Shown here piece after piece: positions 30-23,339 of a stretch of DNA of 23,555 nt. The translations under genes were made by a program, and so were the position numbers. The notes below the pieces were generated by a model, which saw only the letters and a list, made by a program, of their open reading frames with translations, did not search any database and was not told the DNA's origin. Every line of letters begins with the position of its first letter. The first letter of the stretch is position 1. The stretch covers positions 1 to 23,555 of IMG/VR virus record IMGVR_UViG_3300025168_000689; one strand, given 5' to 3'. This DNA is from a virus.

Positions 30-1016
30 ATGACCGATGAAAAATACCCAGAACATCGCAGTTCTGCGATTGGAAAGCTAACCCCAGATTTTGAAGTATC
101 ATGCAGTGTTGTGTGTGATGTTTTTAATGTCAATCCATACACTAACCCCAATGAACGACTAAAATTATGTCACGATGCTATGAATGGCAAAGACATTAGT
201 TTTGAAACTAATAACGCTATGGATATGGGCAACAGGTTAGAAAAAGCTATAGCTTTAGCTGCCTTTGATCGCATTGGTTTATTAGACATTGAATTAGAAG
301 TAACTGAACCTGTTAGACACCCCAGTTTAATTTTAAATGGTTCAGTGGATTGTTATGGCGTTGCTGATAATTTATTCATTCAAAGAGATGTTGATAAGGG
401 TTTTTATCTGCCAGAAAAAGCAGACGATGAAGGCATTAAAATAAATGGCAAAGGTATTATTGAAATAAAAGCTACTAATGCACCTCATCAAGAAGCACCA
501 CCTCTTTATCGTGGGGTACTACAAGTAAAATCATTAATGGCTTGTACTGGCTTAGAATGGGCAGTAATCGCAATTTTAAATGGTACAGACCTTAGATGTT
601 ATTTCTACGAAAGGGATTTGGAGTGGGAAAAAAAAGACCTTGAGCCAAAGATTAAAGATTTTAACAAACGCATACCTCACTGTGATTATTATTCACCTTT
701 TGATACTCAAGATGCAGCTAGAATTAATCCTGTAGACAATGGTGAAACGACTGAACTAACTAAGACAGCACAGAAACACATAGATAATATACAAACTTGG
801 GAAATTCAGGCAAAAGAACTAAATGATCTAATCCAAAATTCCAAAACTAAGTTAATGGAAGAAATGGGAGAATCTCAACAAGGCTTCTCTAAAACTCACA
901 AGGTCATTTGGAAAACTGTTAATTACAAAGCCCAACCAGAAAAGACGAAGGTAACACCAGCAAAAGATGCTTATACACAAAGAAGATTTAGTATAAAAAA
1001 ATTAGATAAAGATTAA
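30..1016 (+). CDS. YqaJ/lambda-exonuclease-type recombination nuclease
   Basis: Predicted 5'-3' DNA exonuclease of the YqaJ/lambda Exo (PD-(D/E)XK) fold, used by phages to resect double-stranded ends for single-strand annealing recombination. The 328-aa protein shows the expected order of catalytic residues: a conserved Glu in GNRLE (E71), an Asp in GSVDCYG (D107), the E-x-K pair in IIEIKAT (E145, K147) and a Gln in RGVLQVK (Q165). The C-terminal third is charged and helical, as in other phage members. The ATG at 30 is preceded by AGGAG with a 6-base spacer, a very good ribosome site. It is the only long plus-strand gene here and overlaps the lysozyme stop by 4 bases in convergent orientation, so it probably ends the early arm. 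A single-strand annealing partner would be expected upstream, outside the window. The family call is from motifs; the exact subfamily is less certain. Confidence 0.88.
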   Translation: MTDEKYPEHRSSAIGKLTPDFEVSCSVVCDVFNVNPYTNPNERLKLCHDAMNGKDISFETNNAMDMGNRLEKAIALAAFDRIGLLDIELEVTEPVRHPSLILNGSVDCYGVADNLFIQRDVDKGFYLPEKADDEGIKINGKGIIEIKATNAPHQEAPPLYRGVLQVKSLMACTGLEWAVIAILNGTDLRCYFYERDLEWEKKDLEPKIKDFNKRIPHCDYYSPFDTQDAARINPVDNGETTELTKTAQKHIDNIQTWEIQAKELNDLIQNSKTKLMEEMGESQQGFSKTHKVIWKTVNYKAQPEKTKVTPAKDAYTQRRFSIKKLDKD

Positions 1017-1564
1017 GCTTCGTCTAAAACAAGTTGTGCGTTTCTTTTGGCACGATTAGGAACTTGCGTAGCATATTTTGAATCTAACAGTTCTTCAGCA
1101 GCAGTTTCATAATCAACATCTTCAATAGCTTCTAAAAATAATTTAAAACCTAATAAACCTTTAATACCCATGTTAAAACACATATCGCATAAAACCATTC
1201 GTACATTAAAAGGTTCATATTTCCAATGTGGTAATTCACGATCTAATTCAACAAATACATCGTCAATATCGTTGCTAAACATATACTCTATTTCAGCAAG
1301 TTTAAGACCTTTTGTTTCCAAGTTCCTACCCACGCCCACACTGGCATATCCTGATTCACAAGTATAAACTTTATATTCTAAACCTTCTTCAGCTTTGATC
1401 TTGCTTTTTAATTTTTCAATAAGTTCTGTCGTTACACCAACATCATCTTTCATTTTTTCTTCCACCTTAAAGACATCAGTAAAATCGGAATATTGCATAT
1501 AAGCATCCAATTCATCGTCAGTTCTAGTGTTAGCATTTTTCTTCTTTTTAAATAAACCAAACAT
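1013..1564 (-). CDS. GH24 (T4/R-type) lysozyme, endolysin
   Basis: Muramidase that cleaves the peptidoglycan glycan backbone at lysis. Residues 50-182 align with T4-type lysozymes: E-E-G-L at 59-62 holds the catalytic Glu (E60), the VGVG-R turn follows at 76-80, and the C-terminal Q-x-P-N-R-A-K-R motif lies at 167-174. The usual Glu-8-Asp-5-Thr triad reads Glu60-8-Cys69-5-Ser75, so both secondary positions are substituted. Cys at the Asp position is known in functional family members; Ser for Thr is conservative. The first 37 residues are a charged extension starting with a basic KKKK patch, with no signal or anchor helix, so export should depend on the holin. A second ATG at residue 38 has a GGAAG-like site five bases upstream and would give 146 aa, closer to the usual family length. 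It starts three bases after the holin stop. Confidence 0.9.
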   Translation of the reverse strand: MFGLFKKKKNANTRTDDELDAYMQYSDFTDVFKVEEKMKDDVGVTTELIEKLKSKIKAEEGLEYKVYTCESGYASVGVGRNLETKGLKLAEIEYMFSNDIDDVFVELDRELPHWKYEPFNVRMVLCDMCFNMGIKGLLGFKLFLEAIEDVDYETAAEELLDSKYATQVPNRAKRNAQLVLDEA

Positions 1565-3001: not shown

Positions 3002-6000
3002 CTATTTACCTCTTAATTTATTTATTTGTGTTTGTAAATCTTCTATTAATTCTTGTTGTTCTTGGATTGCCTTAGTTAATACTGCTGTTAATTGACCATA
3101 CGCCACACCTTTAGAACCATCCTCACCATTAACAATTTCAGGAATGTTTAATTCTAATTCTTGTGCAACAAAACCAATTTGTTGCTCATCATCAGGTTTC
3201 ATTTTGTAAGTTCTAGGTTTTAATTTTTTAACAGTGTCTAAACCATAATTAATATCAACAATATCTTTTTTATAAGCTACATCAGAAGCATCTACCCATG
3301 CACCTGCTGCTGATAATTGTGCTTGATTAGAGCCACTTGTAAAATATAAAATCATACTAGCAGAATCATTACCATACATTAGTCTATATTCGCCACTACT
3401 CGTACCTCTAGCTATTGCAATGCCCTCTCTTGATACAGCTACTTTTTCACCTGCATTTGGTTTAGAAGTTCTATCAACTAACAGCGTTCCAGAAGAATCA
3501 ATTCGCATTTTCTCTGCGCCATCTTGATAAAATTTTGTATTAGCACTGTCTTGGTTGATTATATTTAAGTCACCGCCATCACCTTTCTTTTCAAAATAAG
3601 CGTATGCACCATCAGAACCAGAACTAAAGTTGCCATTGTCTGCATCCAAAAACATCATAGCCCTTCTGCTTCCTGCTGTTGATGAACTTGTTAAAGAAAA
3701 CCCACCACCAGCATTATGATTAGAAGTAGATTCTGAAGTTCTTGTGTGAAAAATTGACTGTGGCGATGCAGTGCCAATTCCTACCTTGCCAGTAGAATCA
3801 ATTCTCAGTGCTTCTGATAATGTATTACCATTAGCTACACTAAAAACCATACCACTAGGAGAAGGGAAAGTTCCACCAGACAATGCTTCTGTGACCTTAC
3901 TTGTAATCTGTCCTCTTATTGGTTGACTTGTTGAGCTGTCATCAGTTCTAAAATTAATAGTACCAATTGTGTCGTTTGTGTCCCAACCACCACCATCTTC
4001 TTTATTGGTAATACTTAAAATTGCACCATTAGTTTGATCAGACTTAGCTATTTCTAAAGTAGATACTGGCGATGAAGTTCCAATTCCAGTTTTTCCGTCA
4101 CCTTTTACTGTTAGATAAGTGGCAGAATTATCAAATTTACGAACACTTAAAGATTCATCTGAACTATTTGAGCCACCTTGTATATGAACTCCATAATTTC
4201 TTCCTGCTGTAGCTTCACTATTAACAAACTTAGCAATATTTCTTTCATCAGCAACACCATCGGCAGCACTAACATTTAAAACAGCTACATCATCTGTAGT
4301 GTTTCCGATGGATACGAAACCACTGTCGTGGATGCGCATTTTTTCTGAATCAGAAGTTGCGAATTTTAAATTCCCACTATCAACATTATAGAAAGTCATA
4401 TCATTACCACTTTTTTCTATAAAGGCAGAAAGAGTATCTGCTGAATGAAATCCTATATATTTTGAACCTGTTCCAGATGCTGATAAATGAACATTTCCTC
4501 TAACTTCTAAAGCACCTAATGGGTCAGTGACTCCAATTCCAACCTTATTATTAAATAGTGCTGTACCAGCATCAGACATATCAAGGGTAAGAGCAGTTAT
4601 TGTGCTTCCGCCATCGTTACCTTTAAATAAAATATCTTTGTTAGATGTGTCAGTGTAAATATTTAGATCACCATTATCTGATTGGAATCTACCAAATTCT
4701 GTGCCATTGTCTTTAAAGAAAACATCCCCACCATCAACATCAACAATAAAATCTGAAGCAATATCTAAAGTAAGACTGCCTGAACTAACATCTATTTCTT
4801 GACCATCAATTGTTATGTTATCTACAGAAATACCAGCATCAACTGTTAAAGTTGAAGGTGCTACTAATGCACCACTCAATTTAGCAGAAGTAACTGTTGA
4901 ATCAGCTAAAGTAGTTGATAAAGCAACATTACCAGTGCCATCAAAAGAAACTGCACCAGCAGTAACATTGCCAGTTAAACTAAAGTTTCTAGCAGTAGCT
5001 AAAGCTGTTGATGTGGCTGCTAATCCTACTGCTATATTTGCAGTACCATCAAAGCTAGTACCACCAATTGTTCTAGCAGTTTCTAAAGCTGTAGCGGTTG
5101 CAGCATTTCCAGTTGTATCTTGGTTTAAAGTACCAACGACAAAATCTAGCGTACCATCGCCATCTTGATAAGTAACAGTAATACCAGTTTCAGTATTACC
5201 AGTGACCATGCCACCAACTATGTCTTGTACTCTTTCAGCATTAACTGTGACATCACCAGAACTAACTGTGAAATCTGTACCATCAAAAGATGCAATACCT
5301 TTGTTTGTTTCTGTCGCATCTTCTGCTGAAACTGTGATAGTGGCATTTTCTGAACCACCACCACTAACATTAATACCTTCACCAGCAGTTAGATCAGCTA
5401 CAAAGTTACCTGTAGTATCAGTAGCTAATGCAACTGAATTAGGTTGTATAGCTGTAGAAATAGATATACCAGCAGAACCATCAAAATTAGCAGTTCCAAC
5501 TACATCACCACTCAAAGCAATTGCTCTTGCTGTTGATAAAGTATTAGCACTACCAGTTACATTACCAGTTACATTACCTTCTAAATTAGAAACTAAAGTG
5601 CCAACAGCATAACCAGTGCCAGATGTATTAACTGTCGTGGTTGGTTCTGCTTGTAAATCTTTAAATAATTTAAACTTACCTGAATCGTTAGCATCTCTAA
5701 ATAAACCTGCATATAAATCTTGTGAACCTGAAGTATCGTATAAACCATAAAAACCTATATCAACAGAATCAGCACCAGAATTACTATTGGCTAATTTTAT
5801 TAAAGGATCTTCAACAGATAGTGTCGCAGTGTTGACAGTTGTTGTAGTGCCATTGACAGTTAAATTACCAGCTATCGTGACATCATCAGGTAAACCGACA
5901 GTCACACCTGCTGTTTCACTGCCAGAACCAGATACTTCTATTTCGTTCGTTGTTCCTGCAATTGTTGCTACATAATTTCCACTTGATTGTGTGCCTAAAA

Positions 6001-7531
6001 CAACTGCATTGTTTGCTAGTTGATCAGTAGTAATTGCATCATCAGCAATATCTAAAGTTATCGCTGCACTTTCTGCACCACTATTAGCAACTGTTATTTT
6101 TGAATTACCAGCATCAGCTATAGTTGCTACATAATTACCAGTTGTGTCTGTGCCTAAAGCTATACTGTTAGCTTGTATCGTTGTAGATATGGTAATTCCA
6201 GCAGTGCCATCAAAGTTTGCTGTACCGACTACATCGCCTGATAAAGCAATAGCTCTAGCAGTAGCTAATTTAGTTGCAGTTGCAGCATTACCAACTAATG
6301 CAGATGTAACTTGATTAAACTGCACATTGTCACCAGTGCCGACTGCTTGACCAATAGCAAAAGTAACGCCATTCCCTGATGCAGTAGAACTAACACCAGT
6401 ACCACCTAATAATGATAAGGTTTCTGAATCTAAGTCTATGGCTATGGTATTTGAACCATCTGTAATGTCTAAATCTTGAACAGTAACTTGAGCATCAACA
6501 TAAGTCTTAATAGCTTTTGCTGAAGCAAGAGTATCATCTGAACCTGATACGCTTGATAGATCGGTATCTAAGACACCTGATTTAAAATTGTCTACTTCAA
6601 AATTAGTTAGAGTATTGTTATCAAGATCAATACTTTTATTGGTTAAAGTTTGTGAACCAACTAATGTTGCAACTGTAGAATCTATTGCAAAAGTAAAACC
6701 ATTACCAGAAGCTGTTGAAGTAAGACCTGTGCCACCTAATAAAGATAATGTTTCTGAATCAAGATCAATGCTAATGCTTGTTGTGCCATCGGTAGCATCT
6801 AAATCTTGTGCAGTTACTTGTGCATCAACATAAGTTTTAATAGCTTTAGCAGATGCTAATGTATTGTCACTGCCAGATACTGAACTTAAATCAGTATCTA
6901 AAACACCTGATTTTAAATTATCAACTTCAACATTACTAAGTGTGTTGTTGTCTATATCTAAAGTTTTGTTTGTTAAAGTTTGACTGCCGACTAAAGTAGC
7001 TACAGTAGCATCAATTGCAAAAGTAACATTGTTACCTGATGCACTAGATGTTAAACCTGTGCCACCCAACAATCCTAAAGATTCTGAATCTAAATCAATA
7101 GATATTGAACTACTGCCATCTGAAATGTCTAGGTCTTGTGCAGTCACTTGCGAATCTACATAAGCTTTGATGGATTGTTGAGTAGCTAATGCTGTTGCAG
7201 AATCAGAATTAAGATTGTCCTCATCTAAAATTGTTGTAACTGTTGAACCTGAACTAAAACTAAAAGAAGAAATGCCATTAACAGTACCACCATTGATATC
7301 AACTGTATTATCTGCTGTGACAGATATAGGTAAAGTAATCCATGCGTTATCAGCACTATTTCTAATTTTTAAAAGATTGTTTGTGGTGTCTACCCACCAT
7401 TCGTAAGCAAAAGTGGTAGCTGGTTGTGAATTACCACTGTTGTTTGTTGCAATTGCACCTAAAGCATTATTTAAGTCTGCTCTAAAATCTGCACCTGTTT
7501 GATTGGCTAAATTATAATCGTGTTGGCTCAT
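3002..7531 (-). CDS. Long tail fibre with C-terminal S74 chaperone domain
   Basis: The 1509-aa receptor-binding fibre. The N-terminus (H-D-Y-N-L-A-N-Q-T-G, then F-A-Y-E-W-W-V-D-T-T at about 41-50) is typical of virion-attaching ends of marine phage fibres. Residues 121-393 are two full and one partial copies of an exact 110-residue repeat. Residues 424-469 and 667-712 are a second repeat pair. From about 1000 onward there are G-x-V-G-I-G-T-x-x-P units, common in trimeric beta-structured fibres. The C-terminus is a Peptidase S74 intramolecular chaperone: the Ser-Lys dyad is S1416 and K1421 in S-D-V-A-Y-K, followed by I-G-F-V-A-Q-E-L and a Y-G-Q-L-T-A-V-L helix. This domain normally assists trimerisation and is then cut off before the Ser. 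A TAGGAA ribosome site lies seven bases before the ATG. Long plus-strand reading frames opposite it are by-products of its biased composition. Confidence 0.93.
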   Translation of the reverse strand: MSQHDYNLANQTGADFRADLNNALGAIATNNSGNSQPATTFAYEWWVDTTNNLLKIRNSADNAWITLPISVTADNTVDINGGTVNGISSFSFSSGSTVTTILDEDNLNSDSATALATQQSIKAYVDSQVTAQDLDISDGSSSISIDLDSESLGLLGGTGLTSSASGNNVTFAIDATVATLVGSQTLTNKTLDIDNNTLSNVEVDNLKSGVLDTDLSSVSGSDNTLASAKAIKTYVDAQVTAQDLDATDGTTSISIDLDSETLSLLGGTGLTSTASGNGFTFAIDSTVATLVGSQTLTNKSIDLDNNTLTNFEVDNFKSGVLDTDLSSVSGSDDTLASAKAIKTYVDAQVTVQDLDITDGSNTIAIDLDSETLSLLGGTGVSSTASGNGVTFAIGQAVGTGDNVQFNQVTSALVGNAATATKLATARAIALSGDVVGTANFDGTAGITISTTIQANSIALGTDTTGNYVATIADAGNSKITVANSGAESAAITLDIADDAITTDQLANNAVVLGTQSSGNYVATIAGTTNEIEVSGSGSETAGVTVGLPDDVTIAGNLTVNGTTTTVNTATLSVEDPLIKLANSNSGADSVDIGFYGLYDTSGSQDLYAGLFRDANDSGKFKLFKDLQAEPTTTVNTSGTGYAVGTLVSNLEGNVTGNVTGSANTLSTARAIALSGDVVGTANFDGSAGISISTAIQPNSVALATDTTGNFVADLTAGEGINVSGGGSENATITVSAEDATETNKGIASFDGTDFTVSSGDVTVNAERVQDIVGGMVTGNTETGITVTYQDGDGTLDFVVGTLNQDTTGNAATATALETARTIGGTSFDGTANIAVGLAATSTALATARNFSLTGNVTAGAVSFDGTGNVALSTTLADSTVTSAKLSGALVAPSTLTVDAGISVDNITIDGQEIDVSSGSLTLDIASDFIVDVDGGDVFFKDNGTEFGRFQSDNGDLNIYTDTSNKDILFKGNDGGSTITALTLDMSDAGTALFNNKVGIGVTDPLGALEVRGNVHLSASGTGSKYIGFHSADTLSAFIEKSGNDMTFYNVDSGNLKFATSDSEKMRIHDSGFVSIGNTTDDVAVLNVSAADGVADERNIAKFVNSEATAGRNYGVHIQGGSNSSDESLSVRKFDNSATYLTVKGDGKTGIGTSSPVSTLEIAKSDQTNGAILSITNKEDGGGWDTNDTIGTINFRTDDSSTSQPIRGQITSKVTEALSGGTFPSPSGMVFSVANGNTLSEALRIDSTGKVGIGTASPQSIFHTRTSESTSNHNAGGGFSLTSSSTAGSRRAMMFLDADNGNFSSGSDGAYAYFEKKGDGGDLNIINQDSANTKFYQDGAEKMRIDSSGTLLVDRTSKPNAGEKVAVSREGIAIARGTSSGEYRLMYGNDSASMILYFTSGSNQAQLSAAGAWVDASDVAYKKDIVDINYGLDTVKKLKPRTYKMKPDDEQQIGFVAQELELNIPEIVNGEDGSKGVAYGQLTAVLTKAIQEQQELIEDLQTQINKLRGK
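5396..5533 (-). repeat. Fibre repeat B, copy 2
   Basis: Residues 667-712 of the fibre, nearly identical to copy 1 at 6125-6262 (Thr/Ser, Ala/Pro, Ile/Val and Tyr/Phe type changes). Silent third-position differences again outnumber coding ones by eye. Confidence 0.8.
6125..6262 (-). repeat. Fibre repeat B, copy 1
   Basis: Residues 424-469 of the fibre, containing A-R-A-I-A-L-S-G-D-V-V-G-T-A-N-F-D-G and ending T-D-T-T-G-N-Y-V-A. The same 46 residues recur 243 residues later (copy 2) with few changes. Weaker relatives with T-A-R and F-D-G-T lie further on, near residues 815-870. Confidence 0.8.
6353..7171 (-). repeat. Exact 110-residue (330-bp) tandem repeats in the fibre gene
   Basis: Unit 1 covers residues 121-230 (7171-6842), unit 2 residues 231-340 (6841-6512), and a partial unit 3 residues 341 to about 393 (6511-6353). 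Anchors I-K-x-Y-V-D-x-Q-V-T, L-L-G-G-T-G, A-T-L-V-G-S-Q-T-L-T-N-K and L-D-T-D-L-S-S-V-S-G-S-D fall in the same register with no insertions or deletions. Codons differ at many silent sites while residues stay the same, so the duplication is old and the protein sequence is constrained. Confidence 0.9.
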
Positions 7532-14219: not shown

Positions 14220-14666
14220 TTACCTCGCTACATCAGGTGCTTGTTCCTGATTAAAATAATTAACATTAAATGTTAAGGTGGCATAGCCAACTGGCTTTTC
14301 ACCTTCTGCATTATATTCTATTTCTGTACTTTCTAAAAAAGTATCTTTAGCTAAATTGTTTAAAGTTGGGTCAGCAGCTATAGCTGTTTCTACTTCTTTG
14401 CATATTGTATCAACTGAATCATCGAAATTACTTGTTGCTTTTACATAACATTCTATAGCTACTGATAAATTTCTTTCTAATAATCTGTTAGTGCCAATCA
14501 CAATAGGTTCTGCTGTTTCTGATTTTGTGTAGATCAACAATGAAGGCAAATTAGCTGTTTCTAGGGGATAAACTCTTGATTCAAATACATTTGAACCAGT
14601 TGTAGTTAAACCAGTCAGAACAGTGCCTAATCTTTCTCTAATTTGCTGTCTAAGATGATTAGCCAT
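14220..14666 (-). CDS. Tail terminator/completion protein, gpU-like
   Basis: A 148-aa protein with an N-terminal helix (L-R-Q-Q-I-R-E-R-L-G-T-V-L), then V-F-E-S-R-V-Y-P-L and L-P-S-L-L-I-Y-T-K-S-E, a central E-R-N-L-S-V-A-I-E-C-Y-V-K-A, a helix with D-x-I-C-K-E-V-E-T-A-I-A-A-D-P and a last strand A-T-L-T-F-N-V-N-Y with a short tail. This matches the alpha/beta fold pattern of lambda gpU-type tail terminators, which cap the growing tail tube. It sits between the FII-like joining proteins and the tail tube. The start is a TAATG junction. The assignment is by pattern and position. Confidence 0.72.
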   Translation of the reverse strand: MANHLRQQIRERLGTVLTGLTTTGSNVFESRVYPLETANLPSLLIYTKSETAEPIVIGTNRLLERNLSVAIECYVKATSNFDDSVDTICKEVETAIAADPTLNNLAKDTFLESTEIEYNAEGEKPVGYATLTFNVNYFNQEQAPDVAR

Positions 14667-15019
14667 TATATTTCCTCTAACATGAGAGTAGTAAAACCAG
14701 TGCGATCTTTTTGCACATTAACTATAGTAAAAGATTTAGCTGCAACCAAAGTATTACCATCCACATCTTTATATGCTGACACAGCTAAAGTATTACCATG
14801 CACAACTGAAGGTACATCGACAGATCGACAGTAAGCTATTGGTTTTGTACCTTCAACACCAATGCCAAATTCTTCTTCAAAATATTCGTTGTTTAAAATG
14901 ATGTTAATAGTTGATTGAGCGCTACTGCTATTAGTAAAAACTGCACTTCTACCATGTCCAAAATCAGAATCAAGATAAGCACTCACATCTTCTTCTGTTT
15001 CCATTCTGTATTGCGACAT
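14666..15019 (-). CDS. FII-like head-tail joining protein, copy 2
   Basis: A 117-aa protein of the lambda FII/head-tail stopper type. Motifs: Y-L-D-S-D-F-G-H-G (16-24), I-N-I-I-L-N-N-E-Y-F, V-E-G-T-K-P-I-A-Y-C-R-S-V-D-V, and N-V-Q-K-D-R-T-G-F-T-T-L-M-L-E-E at the C-terminus. In lambda FII the corresponding V-E-G-S-S-P and D-E-V segments are present, supporting a place at the bottom of the head connector. It is clearly homologous to the adjacent upstream gene, so the pair is a tandem duplication. It starts directly after the upstream TAA and ends in a TAATG junction. Confidence 0.78.
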   Translation of the reverse strand: MSQYRMETEEDVSAYLDSDFGHGRSAVFTNSSSAQSTINIILNNEYFEEEFGIGVEGTKPIAYCRSVDVPSVVHGNTLAVSAYKDVDGNTLVAAKSFTIVNVQKDRTGFTTLMLEEI

Positions 15020-15424
15020 TTATTGTTCCTCTAAAGTCAGTTCAATCATGCCTGTGTTATCAGGTTGCACATTTTTTATCACAAAAGTTGTTTCTGCTTT
15101 TAAAACAGAACCTTTGTTAGTGGTGATTGCATTAACTATCAAACGATCTTCTTGCGATATGTAAGTGACATCAGAAGATTTTACCAATGCTTTAGGTTGA
15201 AAACCTTCGACTGCAACGCTGTTGCCTTCAATATTAAAATATTCTTGATCAATAATGATGTTTATATTTTCTCTATTACCAGAATCAATATCAAACCAAG
15301 TGTCTATCAAACCATTTCTTTGATCAAATAAACTGTTTTGTACTTCAAAAAATGTAGCAGTTACCCCATGTCCAGTAGTTGAATCAAGGTAAGAATTAAA
15401 ATCTGCTGCACTTTCTAAAGCCAT
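15020..15424 (-). CDS. FII-like head-tail joining protein, copy 1
   Basis: A 134-aa paralogue of the next gene. Shared motifs in the same order: Y-L-D-S-T-T-G-H-G, I-N-I-I-I-D-Q-E-Y-F, V-E-G-F-Q-P-K-A-L-V-K-S-S-D-V, then F-V-I-K-N-V-Q-P-D-N-T-G and L-T-L-E-E. The C-terminal half fits lambda FII well. It differs from the shorter copy by an insertion of roughly 17 residues near 30-50 (F-D-Q-R-N-G-L-I-D-T-W-F-D). The start is TAATG with the preceding small gene. One copy may be the joining protein and the other an adaptor or a virion protein; which is which cannot be told. Confidence 0.78.
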   Translation of the reverse strand: MALESAADFNSYLDSTTGHGVTATFFEVQNSLFDQRNGLIDTWFDIDSGNRENINIIIDQEYFNIEGNSVAVEGFQPKALVKSSDVTYISQEDRLIVNAITTNKGSVLKAETTFVIKNVQPDNTGMIELTLEEQ

Positions 15425-15639
15425 TATTTTTTAGTTCTTTTTTTCGGAGTAGGTGCTTCAGATGTTTCTAAACCTACACTACGATTGCTTTCTTTTTTGC
15501 TTTCTTTAGCAGTTGATATTTCAGCTTTACCATAATTTACTAAAGCTCTACCTTCGTCAATATCTAGTTCAACAATATCACCAGCTTTGACATTTTTTTT
15601 ATCTGCAACAGTGTCAGATAAGATTAAATATTTATTCAT
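15424..15639 (-). CDS. Small head-region protein, unknown function
   Basis: A 71-aa basic-tailed protein. The ATG at 15639 is preferred because AAGGA lies at the right distance. A longer in-frame reading from 15705 would begin inside a GC-rich hairpin and adds residues of no evident structure. The protein begins M-N-K-Y-L-I-L-S-D-T-V, followed by V-K-A-G-D-I-V-E-L-D-I-D-E-G-R-A-L-V-N-Y-G-K-A, a small beta barrel-like segment often seen in short proteins next to phage capsid genes. The tail is rich in Lys, Ser and Glu and ends K-K-R-T-K-K. It follows the capsid gene and precedes the FII-like pair, a position that could suit a head accessory protein. Confidence 0.72.
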   Translation of the reverse strand: MNKYLILSDTVADKKNVKAGDIVELDIDEGRALVNYGKAEISTAKESKKESNRSVGLETSEAPTPKKRTKK

Positions 15640-15663
15640 AACTTTTTCCTTTTTATTAGGAAA

Positions 15664-15682
15664 GGTGGGCGTTAAGCCCACC
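15664..15682 (-). other. GC-rich hairpin after the capsid gene
   Basis: Perfect 7-bp inverted repeat (GGTGGGC/GCCCACC) around a 5-base loop, much more GC-rich than its surroundings. It lies 27 bases past the capsid stop on the late transcript. On the minus strand only TTTCC follows, so it is at best a weak or attenuating terminator, or an mRNA 3'-end protecting structure. A second small inverted repeat, ATCTAC/GTAGAT, spans 15704-15718 at the stop codon. Confidence 0.6.
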
Positions 15683-15708
15683 ATCCCATCAGTTTTCATT
15701 ACCATCTA

Positions 15709-18273
15709 CTAGGTAGATTTACAGAATGACACAGCGTGTCTTACAGCAATATCACAAGATTGTAATGCTACTATTCTCACAGTTCCTGATTTCGAGTGCG
15801 TGAAAGGATCTACAACGATATCTAAACCGCCAAAAAATCCAATTAACAAGTCACTGAAATTACCAAATAACATAACGCCATTAGTAATTTGATTGCTTAC
15901 AACTGCATTGTAACCATTGATTTCACTATCAACTGCAATAAATTGTGCAGTATTAGTGGCTTTTTCAGTGGTTTTCAATGTGCCGTATGTTGAAGGGTTA
16001 ACTATGTAAGCTAAGTTGCCTAATAAAGCATTATCAGAACTTACAGCAGTTTCCATACCAACAACTTCAGCAAAAGTTGGTGCAGTATCTGTAGCAAATG
16101 CTTGAGTGTTAATACCAGATTGGTTGATGATTCCAGTAGGGTTACCATTTGAACCAGAACCACTGATTGCAACATTATCAATGTGTGTAGCCATTGCAGC
16201 AGCTAGATCGTTTCTTATTAAGTTCTCAACATCTAAAGATGATTGAAGCAATAATTGACGAGTAGCTTCTGTGTGCGCACCTAAAGTTTTAGGTGTCATT
16301 GAAACATTACCAACTGTCATTTCAGATTCAGCAGAATTTCCACCTTCTGAACTAATAAATTCAGCAGTAGAGCCAGCAGTTTTCTTTGGTATTTTAACAT
16401 CACCAGTTAAACCTTGAAGCATAGTAGCTAAAGGCATTACTGCTGAATTGTTTCTTAATACATCGATAAAATCCCCACCTCTGTAATCTTCAGCTATTAA
16501 GCTGGAATCATCAGAAGAATTAAGATCGCGTTGTCCCCAAGTTCTTAGAACTTCTGGTGGAAGTAGCACACCTTGTGCAGTCTTACCATAAAGTTCACCA
16601 GCAGCTCTTGAACATTCAAATTCAAATGCAGCATCTTCTTGTGCTTTGCGATCAGTAGGATTAGCCATTGCATTAACAGCTCTTAAAATACTAAATCTTT
16701 TAGTTTCTTTTTCGGTTAAACCGATTTCAGAAGGAGTTTCTAAAGGTTGCGTATTAGAAATATTGTCTAATAATACACCTCTAAATTCTTCAACTGATAA
16801 ACCATTAGAAATAGCTTCATCAGCTAAATCTCTTTTGTTGTGTTGACTAGCTAAATCAAGAATCTCTTTAGAGTTTCTTTTAAATTCAGACCTAGCTTCA
16901 ACAACAGCTTTAGATTTAACTTCATCAAGATTAATTTCTTGTTTTTCGTTTTCCATTTTTTTTACCTCTTTGTGTAAAATGTGTTGTTTATTTTCAGAAC
17001 GCCCAACGCCAACGAGTCTTGACTGATCGGCAGGAACACTAACAGAAGAAACTTCCATAGGTGTCCAACTTGCACGATAATAATCTTCATCCTTGTCATC
17101 CATGCGTTCCAACTTATCTACTCTGTAACCGACTGATATATTCATGCGAATACCATCTTTTACATCTTCAAATATTTCGCGAGCTAAAGCAGATTTACCA
17201 AATCTTACCAGTGCAATTGTCCTCTTAGCACTCTCATCTAATTTGAATTCTTCTATCACCCCAATTTGTTTAGTCATATCATGATCTAACAAAAGTGGTG
17301 CGCGACCAGATGAAATAAATTCCATATTTATATCACCTTCAGAATGTCCTAGCACTTCCATGCCAAAACTTCTTTCAACTGGTTCTTCTGACGAAACGCC
17401 AATACGAACCATTCTTTTTTCCTCGTCAATGAAAGAAGCTCTTGATAAATCAATGGTTCTATACTTGATAGCACCATCAATATGTCTTTCTTCTTCATCA
17501 ACAATGGCTTCTTCTTCAGATTCTTCAATATCTTCTATTTCTGCCATTTCTTCCTCAACCTTTTTGAATGTGACAACAACTGTGTCATCTGTTTCAGAAA
17601 CATTGAGAATATGTCTATCTTCTTTTTCAATATCCATACTTTTTACCTCATCGTTTATTGTTAAAGGTTTAACATTTGAATCTAATGATTCAAAATTTCT
17701 TATTGGGTCAATTTTTCTTAGCGTACTAAATTTATGACCAACTTCTGTGTCAGTGGGTTCACCACTTCTATAAACTTGTATTAGAGCAGCAGGGTCATCT
17801 GCTGTGCCTGTTATGGTTAGATCGGAATTAGGAATGTTTATCTTGCCATCCCTTTCTATTTTAATAATCTTTCCTCTAGCTCTGCCACCAGCGCTATTCC
17901 AACTTACAAAGTCACCTGTTTTAAGTGCATCAGGTTCTGCTCTATCTAATTTTCTTTCATCTTCTTTTTTCATTTTTTCCACCAATCTTTTTGACCAACT
18001 AAAACCAGCATCACCACCCCATAATGCCCATGCTATTCTACCATTAGAAGGGTAACCATCTTCACCAGAACTAAATCCTTCTGCTTGTTTATCAACCTCA
18101 TGTCTACTAAAAAAACTATACATTCTTTTAATCGTATCATCTGATAAATTTTCACCTGCAACTATTTGTCTAGCTCTAACAGCACCAACTCTAGTACCAC
18201 CACGACCAAATTCTTCACGCCAGTCTAAACCCTTCTTTGCTTCAGCTTTCATGCCAGCATTAGGGTTAGCCAT
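15709..18273 (-). CDS. Fused TUDOR-domain, prohead protease and major capsid protein
   Basis: One 854-aa ORF from the chosen ATG at 18273, which has GGTGG eight bases upstream; a longer frame to 18321 lies within the portal gene. Residues 1-105 are an R-x-x-I-V-A-G and F-S-R-H-E-V-D region also seen in other phage proteins. Residues 118-188 match the hypervirulence-associated TUDOR domain (G-D-F-V-S-W-N-S-A-G-G-R-A-R-G-K). An acidic linker follows. The U35-type prohead protease occupies about 262-425, with the likely catalytic His in L-L-D-H-D (H331) and Ser in N-I-S-V-G-Y (S380). From 440 on is an HK97-fold capsid protein with a helical delta region and then a shell domain with G-N-P-T-G-I-I-N. 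The gene ends in tandem TAG TAG stops. Strong ribosome sites lie before in-frame ATGs at 17637 and 16956, so separate products may be made. The fold calls are confident; the fusion is directly readable. Confidence 0.9.
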   Translation of the reverse strand: MANPNAGMKAEAKKGLDWREEFGRGGTRVGAVRARQIVAGENLSDDTIKRMYSFFSRHEVDKQAEGFSSGEDGYPSNGRIAWALWGGDAGFSWSKRLVEKMKKEDERKLDRAEPDALKTGDFVSWNSAGGRARGKIIKIERDGKINIPNSDLTITGTADDPAALIQVYRSGEPTDTEVGHKFSTLRKIDPIRNFESLDSNVKPLTINDEVKSMDIEKEDRHILNVSETDDTVVVTFKKVEEEMAEIEDIEESEEEAIVDEEERHIDGAIKYRTIDLSRASFIDEEKRMVRIGVSSEEPVERSFGMEVLGHSEGDINMEFISSGRAPLLLDHDMTKQIGVIEEFKLDESAKRTIALVRFGKSALAREIFEDVKDGIRMNISVGYRVDKLERMDDKDEDYYRASWTPMEVSSVSVPADQSRLVGVGRSENKQHILHKEVKKMENEKQEINLDEVKSKAVVEARSEFKRNSKEILDLASQHNKRDLADEAISNGLSVEEFRGVLLDNISNTQPLETPSEIGLTEKETKRFSILRAVNAMANPTDRKAQEDAAFEFECSRAAGELYGKTAQGVLLPPEVLRTWGQRDLNSSDDSSLIAEDYRGGDFIDVLRNNSAVMPLATMLQGLTGDVKIPKKTAGSTAEFISSEGGNSAESEMTVGNVSMTPKTLGAHTEATRQLLLQSSLDVENLIRNDLAAAMATHIDNVAISGSGSNGNPTGIINQSGINTQAFATDTAPTFAEVVGMETAVSSDNALLGNLAYIVNPSTYGTLKTTEKATNTAQFIAVDSEINGYNAVVSNQITNGVMLFGNFSDLLIGFFGGLDIVVDPFTHSKSGTVRIVALQSCDIAVRHAVSFCKST
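16954..16970 (-). promoter_or_regulatory. Internal ribosome site and start for capsid protein alone
   Basis: AAGAGG, then T and seven A, then ATG (16956-16954), in frame with the fusion. GAGG lies eight bases before the ATG, the same GAGGT spacing seen at accepted starts such as 14215 and 3000. Initiation here would give a 415-residue protein beginning MENEKQ, about the normal size of an HK97-type capsid precursor with its delta domain. Confidence 0.65.
17635..17649 (-). promoter_or_regulatory. Internal ribosome site and start for protease segment
   Basis: GAGG eight bases before an in-frame ATG (17637-17635), product starting MDIEKE, just after the TUDOR domain. A second candidate is the ATG at 17547 (starting MAEIED) with GAGG five bases upstream. 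Either would give a protease-capsid protein lacking the TUDOR region. Confidence 0.5.
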
Positions 18274-19750
18274 CGTCATCACCACCTTGAATATTCGCTT
18301 CAACAGGCATTTTTTGCCCAAATGGTTGATATGCTAATTCAATATTATATTGTTTAGCTAATTCTATTTCTTTTTGATGTTGCTCAAACAATTCTTCAGT
18401 ATCACGACCATAAGCAGCAGAAATATCTGAATAAGTCATTGTGCCATTTTGTAAACCTAGAATACTTGATTGCATTTCTTTTAAAGGGTCAATCCATTGG
18501 AAACTTCTAGGTATGTAATTAACAGAACTAGCAAATTTATCTAGTTTGCCCATTGGCAAATTAATATAACCAGTTGAAACTGCCATTTCTAACCATGCTT
18601 TAAATACAGGGTCAATAAAGTGTTCAATGACAAACTGTTGATATATCTGAAACATAGAACGATCTTCTAAAGCACCTTGACGAATAGAAGAATAATTAAC
18701 CGATGTTAAATCATTACTTAATGAGTGATAAGAAATATTTAAACCAGATGCAATTGATCTCAACACTGAAGTAGTAAAAGATTCAAAAGCAGAAGTAGGA
18801 TGACTAGGGTCAAAAGCCTTAAAATCCATTCCAGCAGGTAATTGTTCAAATGTTCCAGCGTTTGCTGAAGCCACTGGATTAAAAGTATCTTCCATTTCTG
18901 AATCGCCAACATAACCATCACCATCAGGAGATGTAAAGAAACCCATTTTAGAAGCACCCACTCTAGCTGCAACAATTTCTGCTTCAAGATAACCATTAAG
19001 CATTTTAACATTGCTCATTGATGTTGCGATAAGTGATACACCTCTAGTTTGTTCTGCTCTATTCGGTAAGTAAGCGTGAATAATTTCGTCTGCTGGTACT
19101 CTTATGTGTTCATTTTTGTTTATATAAGTGTTGTCGTAAGGATGATTTTTATACAAATGATAGGCAACTGGCTTATCAAAACCATCTACTTCAACACCCA
19201 TTTTAATTCTGTTACCATTTTTAGGGTTTACATCATTTTTCTTTTCGTCTAAATGATCAGCTTCTAAAAATTGAATCTGAAAACCAAATGGACTTTTTTT
19301 ATTTTTTATTTTTCTAATCAAAACCTCGCCATCTCTTGCTAAAGATTCAATAAATATTTTTTGACAGTCTAAAAATGATAATCTGCCATTTGCTGTGCAA
19401 TTACCCAATTTATTCCATTCTTTCCATGCTCTTTCAATTGATATATTTGCAGGTATGTCTAAAGATTCATCATCATTTCTAGCTTTAGAGCTAATGCGAA
19501 CACCATGCTTACCAATGACATTAGAAACCATTAAGTTTAGATATCTTGAAATATAAGAATCGTTTCTGGCTAATTCTCTTGCACGATCTCTTAATACTCT
19601 GATGTTATCTTTTATTTCTGCATCAGCAGATGTAGATGAAGTTAAAAAATCTGCAAATAATCTGCCAGTGTTTGCACCTTGATAGCTTCTTTTGAAAGTT
19701 TGCTTTCTTTTTGGTTTGTTATTACCAAATATATTGTTATACCATGCCAT
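18266..19750 (-). CDS. Portal protein, lambda gpB family
   Basis: A 494-aa portal of the Phage_portal_2 type, forming the dodecameric channel at the capsid vertex. Features: A-R-E-L-A-R-N-D-S-Y-I-S-R-Y-L near the N-terminus; D-G-E-V-L-I-R and the Q-x-L-E-A-D-H-L-D motif; P-A-D-E-I-I-H-A-Y; R-G-V-S-L-I-A; and the hallmark Y-H-S-L-S-N-D-L-T-S-V-N-Y-S-S-I-R-Q-G-A-L-E. The ATG at 19750 follows the upstream TAA by one base. It has no clear ribosome site, so reinitiation is likely. An in-frame TTG at 19789 would extend it 13 residues into the upstream gene and is less likely. Its 3' end overlaps the capsid fusion start by 8 bases. Confidence 0.9.
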   Translation of the reverse strand: MAWYNNIFGNNKPKRKQTFKRSYQGANTGRLFADFLTSSTSADAEIKDNIRVLRDRARELARNDSYISRYLNLMVSNVIGKHGVRISSKARNDDESLDIPANISIERAWKEWNKLGNCTANGRLSFLDCQKIFIESLARDGEVLIRKIKNKKSPFGFQIQFLEADHLDEKKNDVNPKNGNRIKMGVEVDGFDKPVAYHLYKNHPYDNTYINKNEHIRVPADEIIHAYLPNRAEQTRGVSLIATSMSNVKMLNGYLEAEIVAARVGASKMGFFTSPDGDGYVGDSEMEDTFNPVASANAGTFEQLPAGMDFKAFDPSHPTSAFESFTTSVLRSIASGLNISYHSLSNDLTSVNYSSIRQGALEDRSMFQIYQQFVIEHFIDPVFKAWLEMAVSTGYINLPMGKLDKFASSVNYIPRSFQWIDPLKEMQSSILGLQNGTMTYSDISAAYGRDTEELFEQHQKEIELAKQYNIELAYQPFGQKMPVEANIQGGDDDG

Positions 19751-19751
19751 G

Positions 19752-20366
19752 TTAATATTCTGTTGGGTTAAATGAATTGCTATTGCCAAATTTTACTTTG
19801 ATTGTATTACCAGAACCTTTGCCATTCTTAATTCTTGCTATTTTTACTTCTTTTAAGTATTCAGTTTTATATCTATCTCTAAAAGTCATCAATTCGTCAA
19901 TAGACATTCTTGATAATGACCTACCAGCAATAGACATAGAGCTTTGATCCATAGTTGCTCTATTTTCAATCACAGCTTCAACAGCATCTAAAACAATTTT
20001 TGCGTGACTACGCACTGAAGCTGTCGTAGTTGCATAATTTTCTTGGATTTCAGTAAAACCTTCACCAATTTTGATTCTAGCTGTACCAGCAGTTTTAGTA
20101 ATATAAGCAATCCAGTTATATGTGCCTTTTGTATAAGAAGTTGTGCTTGATGTTGAAATTATATATTCATCATTTGCTTCGGAAGCATTTAAAGTAAAAT
20201 TACTAGCAGTTGCACCTTCGTTTAAATTGAATTCATAAGACAAAGAATAAGCATCGGTTGGATAATCAGTAGACAAATCCACTCTTTTCCACGCCCAAAA
20301 GTCACCAAGTTGTAATTCAATTGGTTCGGTAGTAGGAAAGTTTATAGAATCAAATAAGTTGCTCAA
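19752..20366 (-). CDS. Head completion/connector protein with gpW-like C-terminus
   Basis: A 204-aa protein. Residues 1-110 form a beta-rich domain with P-I-E-L-Q-L-G-D-F-W-A-W-K-R and G-T-Y-N-W-I-A-Y-I. The C-terminal part has D-A-V-E-A-V-I-E-N-R-A and S-R-M-S-I-D-E-L-M-T-F-R-D-R-Y, a helical layout resembling gpW-like head completion proteins, with a basic end (K-I-A-R-I-K-N-G-K-G-S-G-N). It is encoded just before the portal, as lambda gpW is. The start is TTG at 20366: GAGG lies six bases before it, and no in-frame ATG occurs before residue 138. The bulk of the protein would be lost with any later start. Confidence 0.7.
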   Translation of the reverse strand: MSNLFDSINFPTTEPIELQLGDFWAWKRVDLSTDYPTDAYSLSYEFNLNEGATASNFTLNASEANDEYIISTSSTTSYTKGTYNWIAYITKTAGTARIKIGEGFTEIQENYATTTASVRSHAKIVLDAVEAVIENRATMDQSSMSIAGRSLSRMSIDELMTFRDRYKTEYLKEVKIARIKNGKGSGNTIKVKFGNSNSFNPTEY

Positions 20367-20402
20367 GCAAAACCTCGTTAATTTAAGATATAACTAAAGT
20401 CA

Positions 20403-20431
20403 ATTATACCTTATATGCGTATATTTTAAGA
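20403..20431 (-). promoter_or_regulatory. Candidate late promoter upstream of connector gene
   Basis: A perfect TATAAT on the minus strand (20408-20403), preceded by GG, lies 37 bases before the TTG start at 20366. The -35 region (TTCTTA or TCTTAA at 16-18 bases) is a poor match. It lies just downstream of the inverted gene and its terminator, where late transcription would need to restart. A phage-specific or activator-dependent promoter is possible. Confidence 0.35.
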
Positions 20432-20534
20432 AATAAAATTTATTTTTAAAATAATTGCAAATAGTTGTTGTAATTTTAGTTATATAGATACTTTTTTTTA
20501 TAAAAACTTAATCTAATGAATATTAAAATAATAG

Positions 20535-20568
20535 TTGTAAATTTTTATGTAGTTGCTATATTTATAAT
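20535..20568 (+). promoter_or_regulatory. Candidate promoter of the inverted small gene
   Basis: TTGTAA (20535-20540) is followed after 16 bases by TATATT (20557-20562), with an overlapping perfect TATAAT at 20563-20568. A start around 20570-20575 would leave a short leader before AGGAG. The surroundings are very AT-rich, which weakens the case, but the isolated gene requires a promoter here. Confidence 0.45.
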
Positions 20569-20595
20569 ATAATTTTAATTAAACAGGAGAAAATT

Positions 20596-20790
20596 ATGAA
20601 CGAATACAAATACAATATAGAACTATCACACAAAGAGTACATTAAAATACTTAGAAGTTTGAGATTAAAACAAAAACATTTAGAAAACATCAATACTGAA
20701 GATTATGCGTTTCCAAAAAAACATGACAATAGAGTAAAAGAACACAAAAAACTATTGTCAAAAATATATAACCTTCAACCTACAAGATGA
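20596..20790 (+). CDS. Moron-like 64-aa protein, unknown function
   Basis: The only plus-strand gene within the late block. The ATG has a textbook AGGAG six bases upstream. The 64-residue product begins MNEYKYNIEL and then S-H-K-E-Y-I-K-I-L-R-S-L-R-L-K-Q-K-H, predicted as a basic helix pair, and ends with K-L-L-S-K-I-Y-N-L. No membrane segment, no cysteines, pI clearly basic. It resembles the many small helical proteins of marine phages but I recognise no family. Having its own promoter-like region and a terminator and being inverted against its neighbours is how phage morons are arranged; such genes often affect the host or superinfection. Function unknown. Confidence 0.78.
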   Translation: MNEYKYNIELSHKEYIKILRSLRLKQKHLENINTEDYAFPKKHDNRVKEHKKLLSKIYNLQPTR

Positions 20791-20811
20791 GTAGATTTTA
20801 AACTAAAAATC

Positions 20812-20839
20812 AAAGCCACCTTAATTGGTGGCTTTTTTT
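20812..20839. terminator. Bidirectional rho-independent terminator
   Basis: GCCACC, loop TTAATT, GGTGGC, with a run of seven T on the plus strand (20833-20839) and a TTTG-A-TTTTT tract on the minus strand. It ends the inverted small gene and can end terminase transcripts coming the other way. The plus-strand T run also encodes, on the opposite strand, part of the terminase large subunit stop (TAA at 20840-20838). Confidence 0.88.
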
Positions 20840-22664
20840 ATTTCCAACTGTTAGCAAAGTTTCCTCTGCCACGATCTATAGGCAATCTTTGTTTTGTTCT
20901 ATTTGGGTCAGGTGGTCTAGTATCACCAGTTAATATTTTTTCTTCTATGACATCAAAGTTAGGGTTCAAAATATATATAGCTGCAAAACAATAAACCAAA
21001 GTGTCTAAGGCTTCGTTACGATCTCTTATTTGTTTCCATACCATTGTCGGTTTACCACGCACATACTTAGTAACTCTTTTTTCTGCTGTCAGTTGTTTAA
21101 AATATTCTTCATCAACATCACTGCAAAAATGAATCGTGGTATTCTCAGGGTCAGTAGACAATCTAGCAAAGATTGCTTCTTTTGCTGTATCAGTTCCGAC
21201 AGGATATAACACTGCTTTATTTCTACCCACATAAGTTGGTTTGTTTGCTATGGGTTTACCAGCTTGACTAGCACCTTTAATAGCAAAGACTCGTCTAGCT
21301 TGTCTTGGCTTCGTAAAATAATAAACTTGTTGCGTATGATGTCCACCTGAATCCACACAAGCACAAGAGATTGGCATAACTCGACCAGATTCTGTTTTAA
21401 ATCTTCTTTTTAAATAAGTATCTAGTTCTGACCAAACATTAGCAGCATTTGGGTCACCCCAAAATATCTTGTAATCAATGACCCAACATTCGTAGTTTTT
21501 ACCAAATCCTACCAGTTGTAATTCTAATCTATCTTTTTGTGTATCTATTCCTGCAACTAAGATTAAGACTTCTTCAGGTATTGTTGTGTGATCGTAATTC
21601 AATCTGCGTTCTAATAATGTTTCGTACTCTACTGCATCACCTTGTTCTTCCCAAGACTCACCAAGAGAACAATTTATCCAAGTCTTTAACATTTCTGGTT
21701 GTTTTTTAGCTTCTAAAAATGCCATTGCCATATCTGCCCATGTTGACCAAACAGAATAAAGTTCTGAAATATGAAAACCAGCAGTATTGACTGAAGGTTG
21801 ACTAGCTATCCATTCACCATTTTTAATCATCCATTGTTTTTTAGATTCATCAATAATAGAACCACATTCGGAACAAGCATATTTAGCTGTTTCTGGTTTA
21901 TCATCTTCCCAAACCACATTCTTCCATTTCAATACTTGTTTGTGATTGCACTCTGGACAAGGCACATGATAATAACGCTGATCAGATTCTAAAAATGCTT
22001 GTTCAATTCTTGATAGACCTTTGATAGTTGGCGTTGAACATAAATATATCTTACGATTCCAAAAAGTTTTTGTTCTTGCTATAGCTAAATCTACTGGACT
22101 ACCTTCTGTACCTGCTGATGCTTCATATCTATCTACCTCATCCATTAACAATATTCTAATGGGTCTTGATGCTAAACCAGATGCAGAATTAGAACCAACA
22201 ATAGTCAAATGACCACCAGCAAATTTTTTATGTAAGACAGTGTTACCTGAATCTCTTGATCTTGCTTCTTTAAAACAATCATTGATCTTTTCAGTATCAC
22301 GAATCATTGCAGACAAACGATCTTTACTAAATGCTTGTCCCATTTGTAGTGTTGGTTGCACAATCATCATTGGTGATGGGTCTTGATCTACATAGTAACC
22401 AATTGTATTAAGAATAATTTCTGTTTTACCTACCTGTGATGATGTCATTACGACAATTCTTTGAATATCAGGGTCATTAAAGACATCCATGATTTCTTTT
22501 TGATAGGAAGCACGATCAGTACGCCATTGACCAGCTTCTGCTGAAGATTCTGGTGATAACTTTCGGTAATTATCTGCCCAATCAGATATCTTTAGATTCG
22601 GTGGTGGTTTCCAAATCTGATTGATTGCTGACATTACGCTGTCTATATTTTGTTGGTATTCCAT
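20838..22664 (-). CDS. Terminase large subunit, GpA family
   Basis: The 608-aa packaging motor and nuclease. Walker A is S-S-Q-V-G-K-T-E (75-82) and Walker B I-L-L-M-D-E (171-176), with the coupling motif in Y-L-C-S-T-P-T (207-213). A zinc-binding insert has C236/C239 and C264/C267, typical of the GpA group. The nuclease domain carries Asp in A-G-I-D-T-Q (D374), Asp in C-V-D-S-G-G (D438) and Asp in N-E-A-L-D-T (D554). The start chosen overlaps the small subunit gene by 83 bases; an ATG at 22634 would shorten this and remove 10 residues. Neither has a clear ribosome site, so translation is probably coupled. GpA-type enzymes usually cut at cos sites, so cohesive ends are a fair inference. Confidence 0.94.
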   Translation of the reverse strand: MEYQQNIDSVMSAINQIWKPPPNLKISDWADNYRKLSPESSAEAGQWRTDRASYQKEIMDVFNDPDIQRIVVMTSSQVGKTEIILNTIGYYVDQDPSPMMIVQPTLQMGQAFSKDRLSAMIRDTEKINDCFKEARSRDSGNTVLHKKFAGGHLTIVGSNSASGLASRPIRILLMDEVDRYEASAGTEGSPVDLAIARTKTFWNRKIYLCSTPTIKGLSRIEQAFLESDQRYYHVPCPECNHKQVLKWKNVVWEDDKPETAKYACSECGSIIDESKKQWMIKNGEWIASQPSVNTAGFHISELYSVWSTWADMAMAFLEAKKQPEMLKTWINCSLGESWEEQGDAVEYETLLERRLNYDHTTIPEEVLILVAGIDTQKDRLELQLVGFGKNYECWVIDYKIFWGDPNAANVWSELDTYLKRRFKTESGRVMPISCACVDSGGHHTQQVYYFTKPRQARRVFAIKGASQAGKPIANKPTYVGRNKAVLYPVGTDTAKEAIFARLSTDPENTTIHFCSDVDEEYFKQLTAEKRVTKYVRGKPTMVWKQIRDRNEALDTLVYCFAAIYILNPNFDVIEEKILTGDTRPPDPNRTKQRLPIDRGRGNFANSWK

Positions 22665-23109
22665 TTTCTGCTAATTCTTCTAAAGATTCATATACTTGTT
22701 CTTTAATTATTAATTCAGCTTCGGCATATTTATCTACTGTGATGACTAAATGTGCAACTCTTGATGGCAAAGCTAATAATTTTGCTCTGACATTGGCAAT
22801 ATAATCTGTCCAAGTTGATTGCACAAGTGTAGCTGGAATCAATTCAGCTTCTAATTCTGATACTTCTAGTTCAGCTTTGTCTGCTTGAGCTTTAGTCAAT
22901 CTTGTTTTTTCTTCAGCTATATCACCTGAACCAGTTCTTTTGTTGTAACCACCCAACTGTCTTAAATAATTAATGTAGTTTTTACGACACACTTCCAAAT
23001 CCATTGGGTTTCTGCCTTGCTTGACATCTAACACGCCTTTTTCTACTAATTTACTAATAGAAACAACACTTAAGTCTAAATGTTCAGCAACTTCTTTTCT
23101 GGTAGCCAT
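22582..23109 (-). CDS. Terminase small subunit, Nu1-like
   Basis: A 175-aa DNA-recognition subunit of terminase. The N-terminus is a winged helix-turn-helix with T-R-K-E-V-A-E-H-L-D-L-S-V-V-S-I-S-K-L-V-E-K-G-V-L (3-27), as in lambda Nu1. The middle has a long helical region with E-E-K-T-R-L-T-K-A-Q-A-D-K-A-E-L-E (66-82), characteristic of this family, and P-S-R-V-A-H-L lies at about 115-121. It recognises the packaging site and recruits the large subunit, encoded next with an 83-base overlap. The start forms a TAATG junction with the preceding gene. Confidence 0.88.
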   Translation of the reverse strand: MATRKEVAEHLDLSVVSISKLVEKGVLDVKQGRNPMDLEVCRKNYINYLRQLGGYNKRTGSGDIAEEKTRLTKAQADKAELEVSELEAELIPATLVQSTWTDYIANVRAKLLALPSRVAHLVITVDKYAEAELIIKEQVYESLEELAENGIPTKYRQRNVSNQSDLETTTESKDI

Positions 23110-23339
23110 TATTCAATTATTTCAATATCAGATTCTGTTTCAATAACAACTCTTGCACCACAAGAAAGAATTGGTTTTCCTTCTTTGCCATAACGCACAA
23201 TAGAATCCCCTTTAATTTTTACTGAATGACAATAAGTATTACTTTTGCCTTCCTTAATAGTAATGACTGCTTCGTTTTTATTGTGTTTTAAATTAGATTT
23301 AATCTTGTGTTGATTAACATGAATGTATTTTTTAGCCAT
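23109..23339 (-). CDS. 76-aa protein before terminase, unknown function
   Basis: A small basic beta-rich protein: M-A-K-K-Y-I-H-V-N-Q-H-K-I-K, then E-A-V-I-T-I-K-E-G, Y-C-H-S-V-K-I-K-G, and a final V-V-I-E-T-E-S-D-I-E strand. A similar short gene, as far as I recall, is common immediately before terminase in marine siphovirus genomes, but no function is known to me. It is adjacent (6 bases) to the 47-aa gene upstream and coupled by TAATG to TerS, so it belongs to the packaging operon. Confidence 0.75.
   Translation of the reverse strand: MAKKYIHVNQHKIKSNLKHNKNEAVITIKEGKSNTYCHSVKIKGDSIVRYGKEGKPILSCGARVVIETESDIEIIE

Follow-up and report, generated by a model that had tools for sequence, protein, structure and literature searches.

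The stretch of DNA analysed here, called the window below, is a 23,555-base virus record from IMG/VR with a GC content of about 34% (33-35%). Nearly all of its genes lie on the minus strand, running from 23.5 kb down to 1.0 kb, and the late block on this strand encodes the small terminase subunit, a GpA-type large terminase subunit (TerL), a head-tail-joining protein, a lambda-family portal, a large protease/capsid protein, tail proteins and a lysozyme. The terL gene (20838-22664, minus strand) matches PF05876 (1.7e-93), PF20454 (2.4e-93) and phrog_15 (1.2e-260), and the head-tail-joining gene (19752-20366, minus strand) matches phrog_5774 (8.2e-33). These two genes form the upstream and downstream flanks, respectively, of a slot that holds a gene of the opposite strand. 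At the low end of the window, the lysozyme gene (1013-1564, minus strand) is convergent with, and abuts, a plus-strand gene with a weak YqaJ-like match (30-1016).

A 76-aa gene of phrog_8676 (23109-23339, minus strand) separates the first small late gene from that of the small terminase subunit. It is absent from the relative L150, whose alignment omits 23123-23332 between flanks that are 96-99% identical, and this is a further presence/absence difference. The 870-aa product of a single ORF at 15709-18321 (minus strand) comprises a head-protease-type region, capsid domain PF05065 (residues 617-868) and a TUDOR-like domain, PF11160 (residues 136-187); we read it as a protease fused to the major capsid protein, the N-terminal part being unusual. 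The ORF at 3002-7531 (minus strand) encodes a 1509-aa tail or fibre-like protein. Its relatives range from a few hundred to 1722 aa at 26-94% identity, which suggests rapid domain exchange.

The sequence-only reading of this DNA had described a single plus-strand ORF with an AGGAG amid minus-strand genes, and such an ORF is indeed found between terL and the head-tail-joining gene. It extends from the ATG at 20596 to 20790, with a strong AGGAG at 20585-20589, six bases ahead of the start codon, and encodes a 64-aa protein which is basic, as had been stated (pI 9.8). The GC content of the ORF is 25.6% compared to 33-35% for the genome, so its composition differs from that of its surroundings. 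The probability of an open frame this long is 0.003 in dinucleotide shuffles of the ORF body, and that of any 64-aa ORF in the 471-bp gap is 0.038. Judged by ORF statistics alone, a chance origin is moderately improbable: the ORF is real, but the case is not overwhelming.

The earlier statement that the product belongs to no recognisable family also held. No relative of the 64-aa protein was found by Pfam, by tblastn against phage records or by a peptide-pattern scan of IMG/VR; phmmer against the 3,496 ORFs of the fetched loci gave zero relatives, and the best PHROGs hit was a 0.21 match to a family of unknown function. A structure search had been proposed as well. A single-sequence AlphaFold2 model of low confidence (pLDDT 73, pTM 0.36) contains two helices, residues 12-35 and 44-58, whereas a Foldseek comparison of this model with viral models gave no usable match. 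The protein is an orphan and probably forms a helical hairpin.

The ORF is preceded by a leader at 20526-20595 (plus strand), which comprises a -35 element TTGTAA (20535-20540), a 16-nt spacer, an extended -10 element TGcTATATT (TATATT at 20557-20562) and the ribosome-binding AGGAG. The promoter-like hexamers that had drawn attention to this region are, taken alone, no more frequent than chance: a scan found 7 of them where 8.8 are expected. The promoter reading is supported instead by the conservation of the leader in front of unrelated genes: the segment 20526-20600 recurs in L150 with 87% identity (E = 9e-19). In IMG/VR, just a single contig fitted a strict leader pattern, and a looser one gave 15 stretches, every one of them from a relative. 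With a profile, copies were located in the window clade at the terL slot, at the head of the early operon and in a slot at the tail of the early operon next to the lysozyme gene, all of them on the early strand. One contig of 17,276 bases (L155/L156) carries the leader at all three places, and the number of copies per record is two to three. The aligned copies consist of TTGTAA, a spacer of 16-17 bases and, in most cases, TATATT or TATCTT, followed by AGGAGAAAATTATG. The leader in the slot thus appears to duplicate the early promoter of the phage itself, and we infer that it is active as such, although its conservation could in part be due to a translation leader rather than to a promoter.

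Downstream of the ORF lies a predicted bidirectional intrinsic terminator (20812-20835, both strands) whose stem is followed by a T-run on the plus strand and, on the minus strand, where it would end terL, by another T-rich tail. The strong terminator of the earlier reading is thus present, with a hairpin energy of -15 kcal/mol and a z-score of -5.0, and the span given there, from the -35 hexamer to the end of the T-run, fits the cassette well. Rfam matches over the end of the gene were dismissed because they were below the gathering scores and merely tracked the terminator. In L150, the next early promoter starts about ten bases past a terminator.

Between the head-tail-joining gene and the leader, two more elements can be distinguished. 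The first, at 20367-20438 (minus strand), is the recipient side, which precedes the head-tail-joining gene and includes a TATAAT-type element; judged by eye, it appears conserved and retained in empty sites (WIN, L002-L006, L065 and L079-L088 in the alignment, WIN being the window). The second is a 38-nt truncated early-promoter stub (20439-20476, plus strand), just outside the span of the earlier reading. The stub lies within a 177/178-identical match of 20300-20476 to L150 and is 92% identical to the second L150 promoter. In L150 the equivalent element runs on into a full leader and a cargo gene, and the stub is likely to be a relic of an earlier cassette. The arrangement of a separate, complete leader behind an L150-type stub may reflect the placement of one cassette into another, or its decay from it.

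The comparison with L150, the nearest relative (on the same contig as L002), defines the borders of the exchanged segment. The two genomes are 98.6% identical over 14227-20476 (6.2 kb), and the match restarts exactly at 20812, the first base of the terminator, to continue at 95.8% identity to 23122. Between 20476 and 20812, the window has the 64-aa ORF and L150 has a 1.76-kb insert with three ORFs; the cargo is unrelated, and the leader is the sole part that is shared. The exchanged piece therefore begins within a promoter element and extends up to base 20812, where the terminator starts. As the breakpoints fall inside promoter and terminator repeats, the exchange is best read as homologous recombination.

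Searches for TerL and the head-tail-joining protein yielded 131 loci with both flanks, 127 of which remained after the removal of same-contig duplicates. The slot is empty in 80 of these 127 distinct loci, with a junction of 63-131 bp, and filled in the other 47 (271-3342 bp). The extra gene is thus absent from this place in most relatives, as expected of the moron-like gene that had been proposed, and the presence/absence comparison suggested at the time leaves no room for the alternative that the gene is conserved at the same place in all relatives. At least 13 changes among empty, inverted and co-oriented slots are required on the TerL tree, and two loci with identical TerL (L112 and L118) differ in the state of the slot. 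The cargo falls into 38 protein clusters over all loci, most of it as obscure as the 64-aa protein. Locus L149, on a contig binned with a Flavobacteriaceae MAG, was dropped as evidence for the host, since no cargo is present in its slot and a bin assignment is weak when it concerns one viral contig alone.

In the 57% TerL clade (L117, L109, L110, L103 and relatives), the slot contains PRA-PH, thymidylate synthase, dCMP deaminase or methyltransferase genes after an early-type leader. The first three are functions used early in infection and, for this reason, the cargo of this clade counts in favour of an early cassette. A metalloprotease-like cargo with the motif HEYAH occupies this slot in two clades, with the two copies pointing in opposite directions (L154:990-1724 and L008:2753-3523). 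The two proteins are 35% identical over 158 aa (E 3e-26), and a SprT-like match of the L154 protein is sub-threshold (E 0.012).

The direction of the cargo is not arbitrary. In the clade of the window (A), both the early operon and the slot cargo run against the late genes. Clade B (L129) has all genes on one strand and co-oriented cargo, and its slot leader recurs at the head of the early operon (E 6e-8 and 2e-5). In the 52% clade (C), the early operon is again opposite, as is the cargo of L064, the slot leader of which is 90.6% identical over 32 nt (E 1e-7) to the early-operon head on the contig of L063. Finally, in the 57% clade (D; L117), both the early operon and the cargo are co-oriented, with the leader recurring at the early head (E 3e-9). 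In the co-oriented clade, the leader pattern was too strict beyond the slot, and the early-operon copies came from profiles. In four clades, then, the slot leader matches the early-operon leader of that clade, and the cargo follows the direction of the early operon. These may represent fewer than four independent cases, because a single inversion of the early operon in a common ancestor may account for clades A and C, and the co-oriented layout is common to clades B and D.

The slot beside the lysozyme gene provides a second example. It is empty in the window (1010-1016, both strands), where the end of the YqaJ-like gene meets the convergent lysozyme gene. Relative to the window, L151 shows 97% identity on either side of this point and has 410 bp extra, which consist of a leader, a 94-aa ORF and a terminator inserted exactly at the four-base overlap of the two genes. 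Hairpins of the same class close the cassettes in both slots, and the second-slot terminator of L151 has 31 bases identical to the terL-slot terminators of L002 and L003. The terL-slot cargo of L152 includes a protein with 88% identity to a 65-aa protein encoded at the head of the early operon in L151. The shared leader, the 31-base terminator and the 65-aa protein together show that cargo, promoter and terminator occur in several places. The second slot is likewise empty in L180, a 4309-base contig whose YqaJ-like and lysozyme proteins are 100% identical to those of the window and which adds 1.7 kb upstream in the early operon, i.e. a 355-aa protein, DNA methyltransferase-like by eye, and two small genes.

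The most convincing explanation, which we consider highly probable, is that the unit is a self-contained, moron-like cassette for early expression whose exchange takes place between promoter and terminator repeats, in a manner similar to the PeSL (promoter-early stem-loop) elements of T4. Its parts would be a copied early-promoter/RBS leader, a single small gene as cargo and a terminator active in both directions. The anatomy agrees with the earlier proposal of a unit transcribed independently of the late programme, as far as sequence can tell. Located at an operon boundary within the late block, past terL and ahead of the recipient side of the head-tail-joining gene, the cassette would leave late transcription undisturbed, and we infer that the site is tolerated for this reason. 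Host RNA polymerase would transcribe the cassette from the opposite strand right after infection, alongside the early operon; this predicted timing follows from the leader sequence common to both. The hairpin would keep the plus-strand transcript from continuing as antisense RNA into terL, and on the other strand it would end the terL transcript. Recombination between the promoter and terminator repeats of the cassettes, the early operon and the second slot could then swap, stack or delete cargo while the flanks stay nearly identical.

Could the RNA, and not the protein, be what matters? A short early transcript, or transcription itself, might insulate or regulate the terL/head-gene junction, and the well conserved terminator structure would suit this, as would the empty sites of the 81% clade, which retain the hairpin with its T-run facing terL. 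However, the open frames of filled sites begin at a common AGGAG-ATG, the cargo proteins are unrelated to one another and include some clear enzymes, and the Rfam matches are those sub-threshold ones that follow the terminator, which makes an RNA function very unlikely. Just as improbable, in our estimate, is the placement of the cassette by a transposon, a homing endonuclease or an integron-type recombinase. Site-specific systems do also produce a fixed slot with changing cargo, but the slot proteins that were scanned revealed no integrase, transposase or homing nuclease, one cargo protein giving only 0.035 HNH-family and 0.018 excisionase-family matches, and the breakpoints lie inside the promoter and terminator repeats. 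A classic lysogenic-conversion moron, expressed from a prophage to modify the host or block superinfection, shares the promoter-ORF-terminator anatomy, the inverted orientation and the low GC of the ORF, but is the least probable of all, given that no tyrosine integrase (PF00589) was found in the window, itself a fragment, and 14 related records (the control genomes all matched), that the nearby CRP-822-type family is described in PMC12629253 as almost wholly devoid of integrase and probably strictly lytic, and that the promoter appears to be the early promoter and not a separate one. The expression in a lysogen envisaged for this gene is thus not borne out.

With the exchanged early cassette as the preferred reading, the 64-aa protein is most likely an early accessory protein that acts on the host cell or on host defences; TifA (PMC9391042) and other small early proteins of T4 serve as the analogy. 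An early-infection role in host takeover or counter-defence would suit the predicted expression better than the superinfection blocking suggested previously. More tentatively, a lytic marine phage family as a whole may run such an exchange, with interchangeable accessory genes framed by copies of the early promoter and terminator. There would be two or more fixed slots for these genes, of which one lies within the late block and invariably follows the direction of the early operon, and a counter-defence gene could be replaced in one recombination step. The findings translate into a search rule for early accessory genes of uncultured phages: examine the terL/head-tail-joining and YqaJ/lysozyme junctions and read along the early operon. 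The 38 cargo families of the terL slot, nearly all without known function, become candidates for host takeover and counter-defence in marine bacteria whose phages grow poorly in the laboratory; SAR86 is the host predicted in PMC12629253 for the low-GC subgroup V of the CRP-822 type.

The nearest isolates are the roseophages CRP-821, CRP-811 and CRP-406 of the CRP-822-type family, whose TerL is about 51% identical. The hallmarks of this family are TerL, capsid and DNA helicase; the window, a fragment, does not include the helicase. These isolates resemble the window in the gene order TerS-TerL-small protein-portal-capsid. However, their slot is closed, and terL and the next gene abut or nearly do so.

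A moron, as defined in PMC1524935, is an extra gene with its own promoter and terminator that lies between conserved genes, is absent from relatives and has a deviating GC content. Like the lambdoid morons, the gene described here is located between conserved genes, has its own terminator and a lower GC content, and is absent from relatives. Unlike them, it has a promoter that appears to be a copy of the early promoter common to unrelated cargo, and it resides in a phage that appears lytic; furthermore, some relatives have stacked cargo, and a second slot uses the same cassette parts.

The likeness to the PeSL elements of T4-type phages (Arbiol 2010 and Comeau 2014, as cited in PMC4503421) is closer in that, going by that account, repeated units of an early promoter and a stem-loop terminator surround shuffled accessory genes there too. 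In contrast to the T4-type myoviruses with their high density of copies, the window phage has a GpA-type terminase, a lambda-family portal and two to three copies of the leader per record. The phages here are marine, have small genomes of about 30-35 kb and fall close to the siphovirus-type CRP-822 group; they carry few copies per genome, and their cassette is embedded among late genes, with terL on one side and the head-tail-joining gene on the other. The shuffling of promoter-terminator cassettes, known above all from large T4-type phages, would thereby extend to marine phages of 30-35 kb, with the orientation of the cassette tied to that of the early operon.
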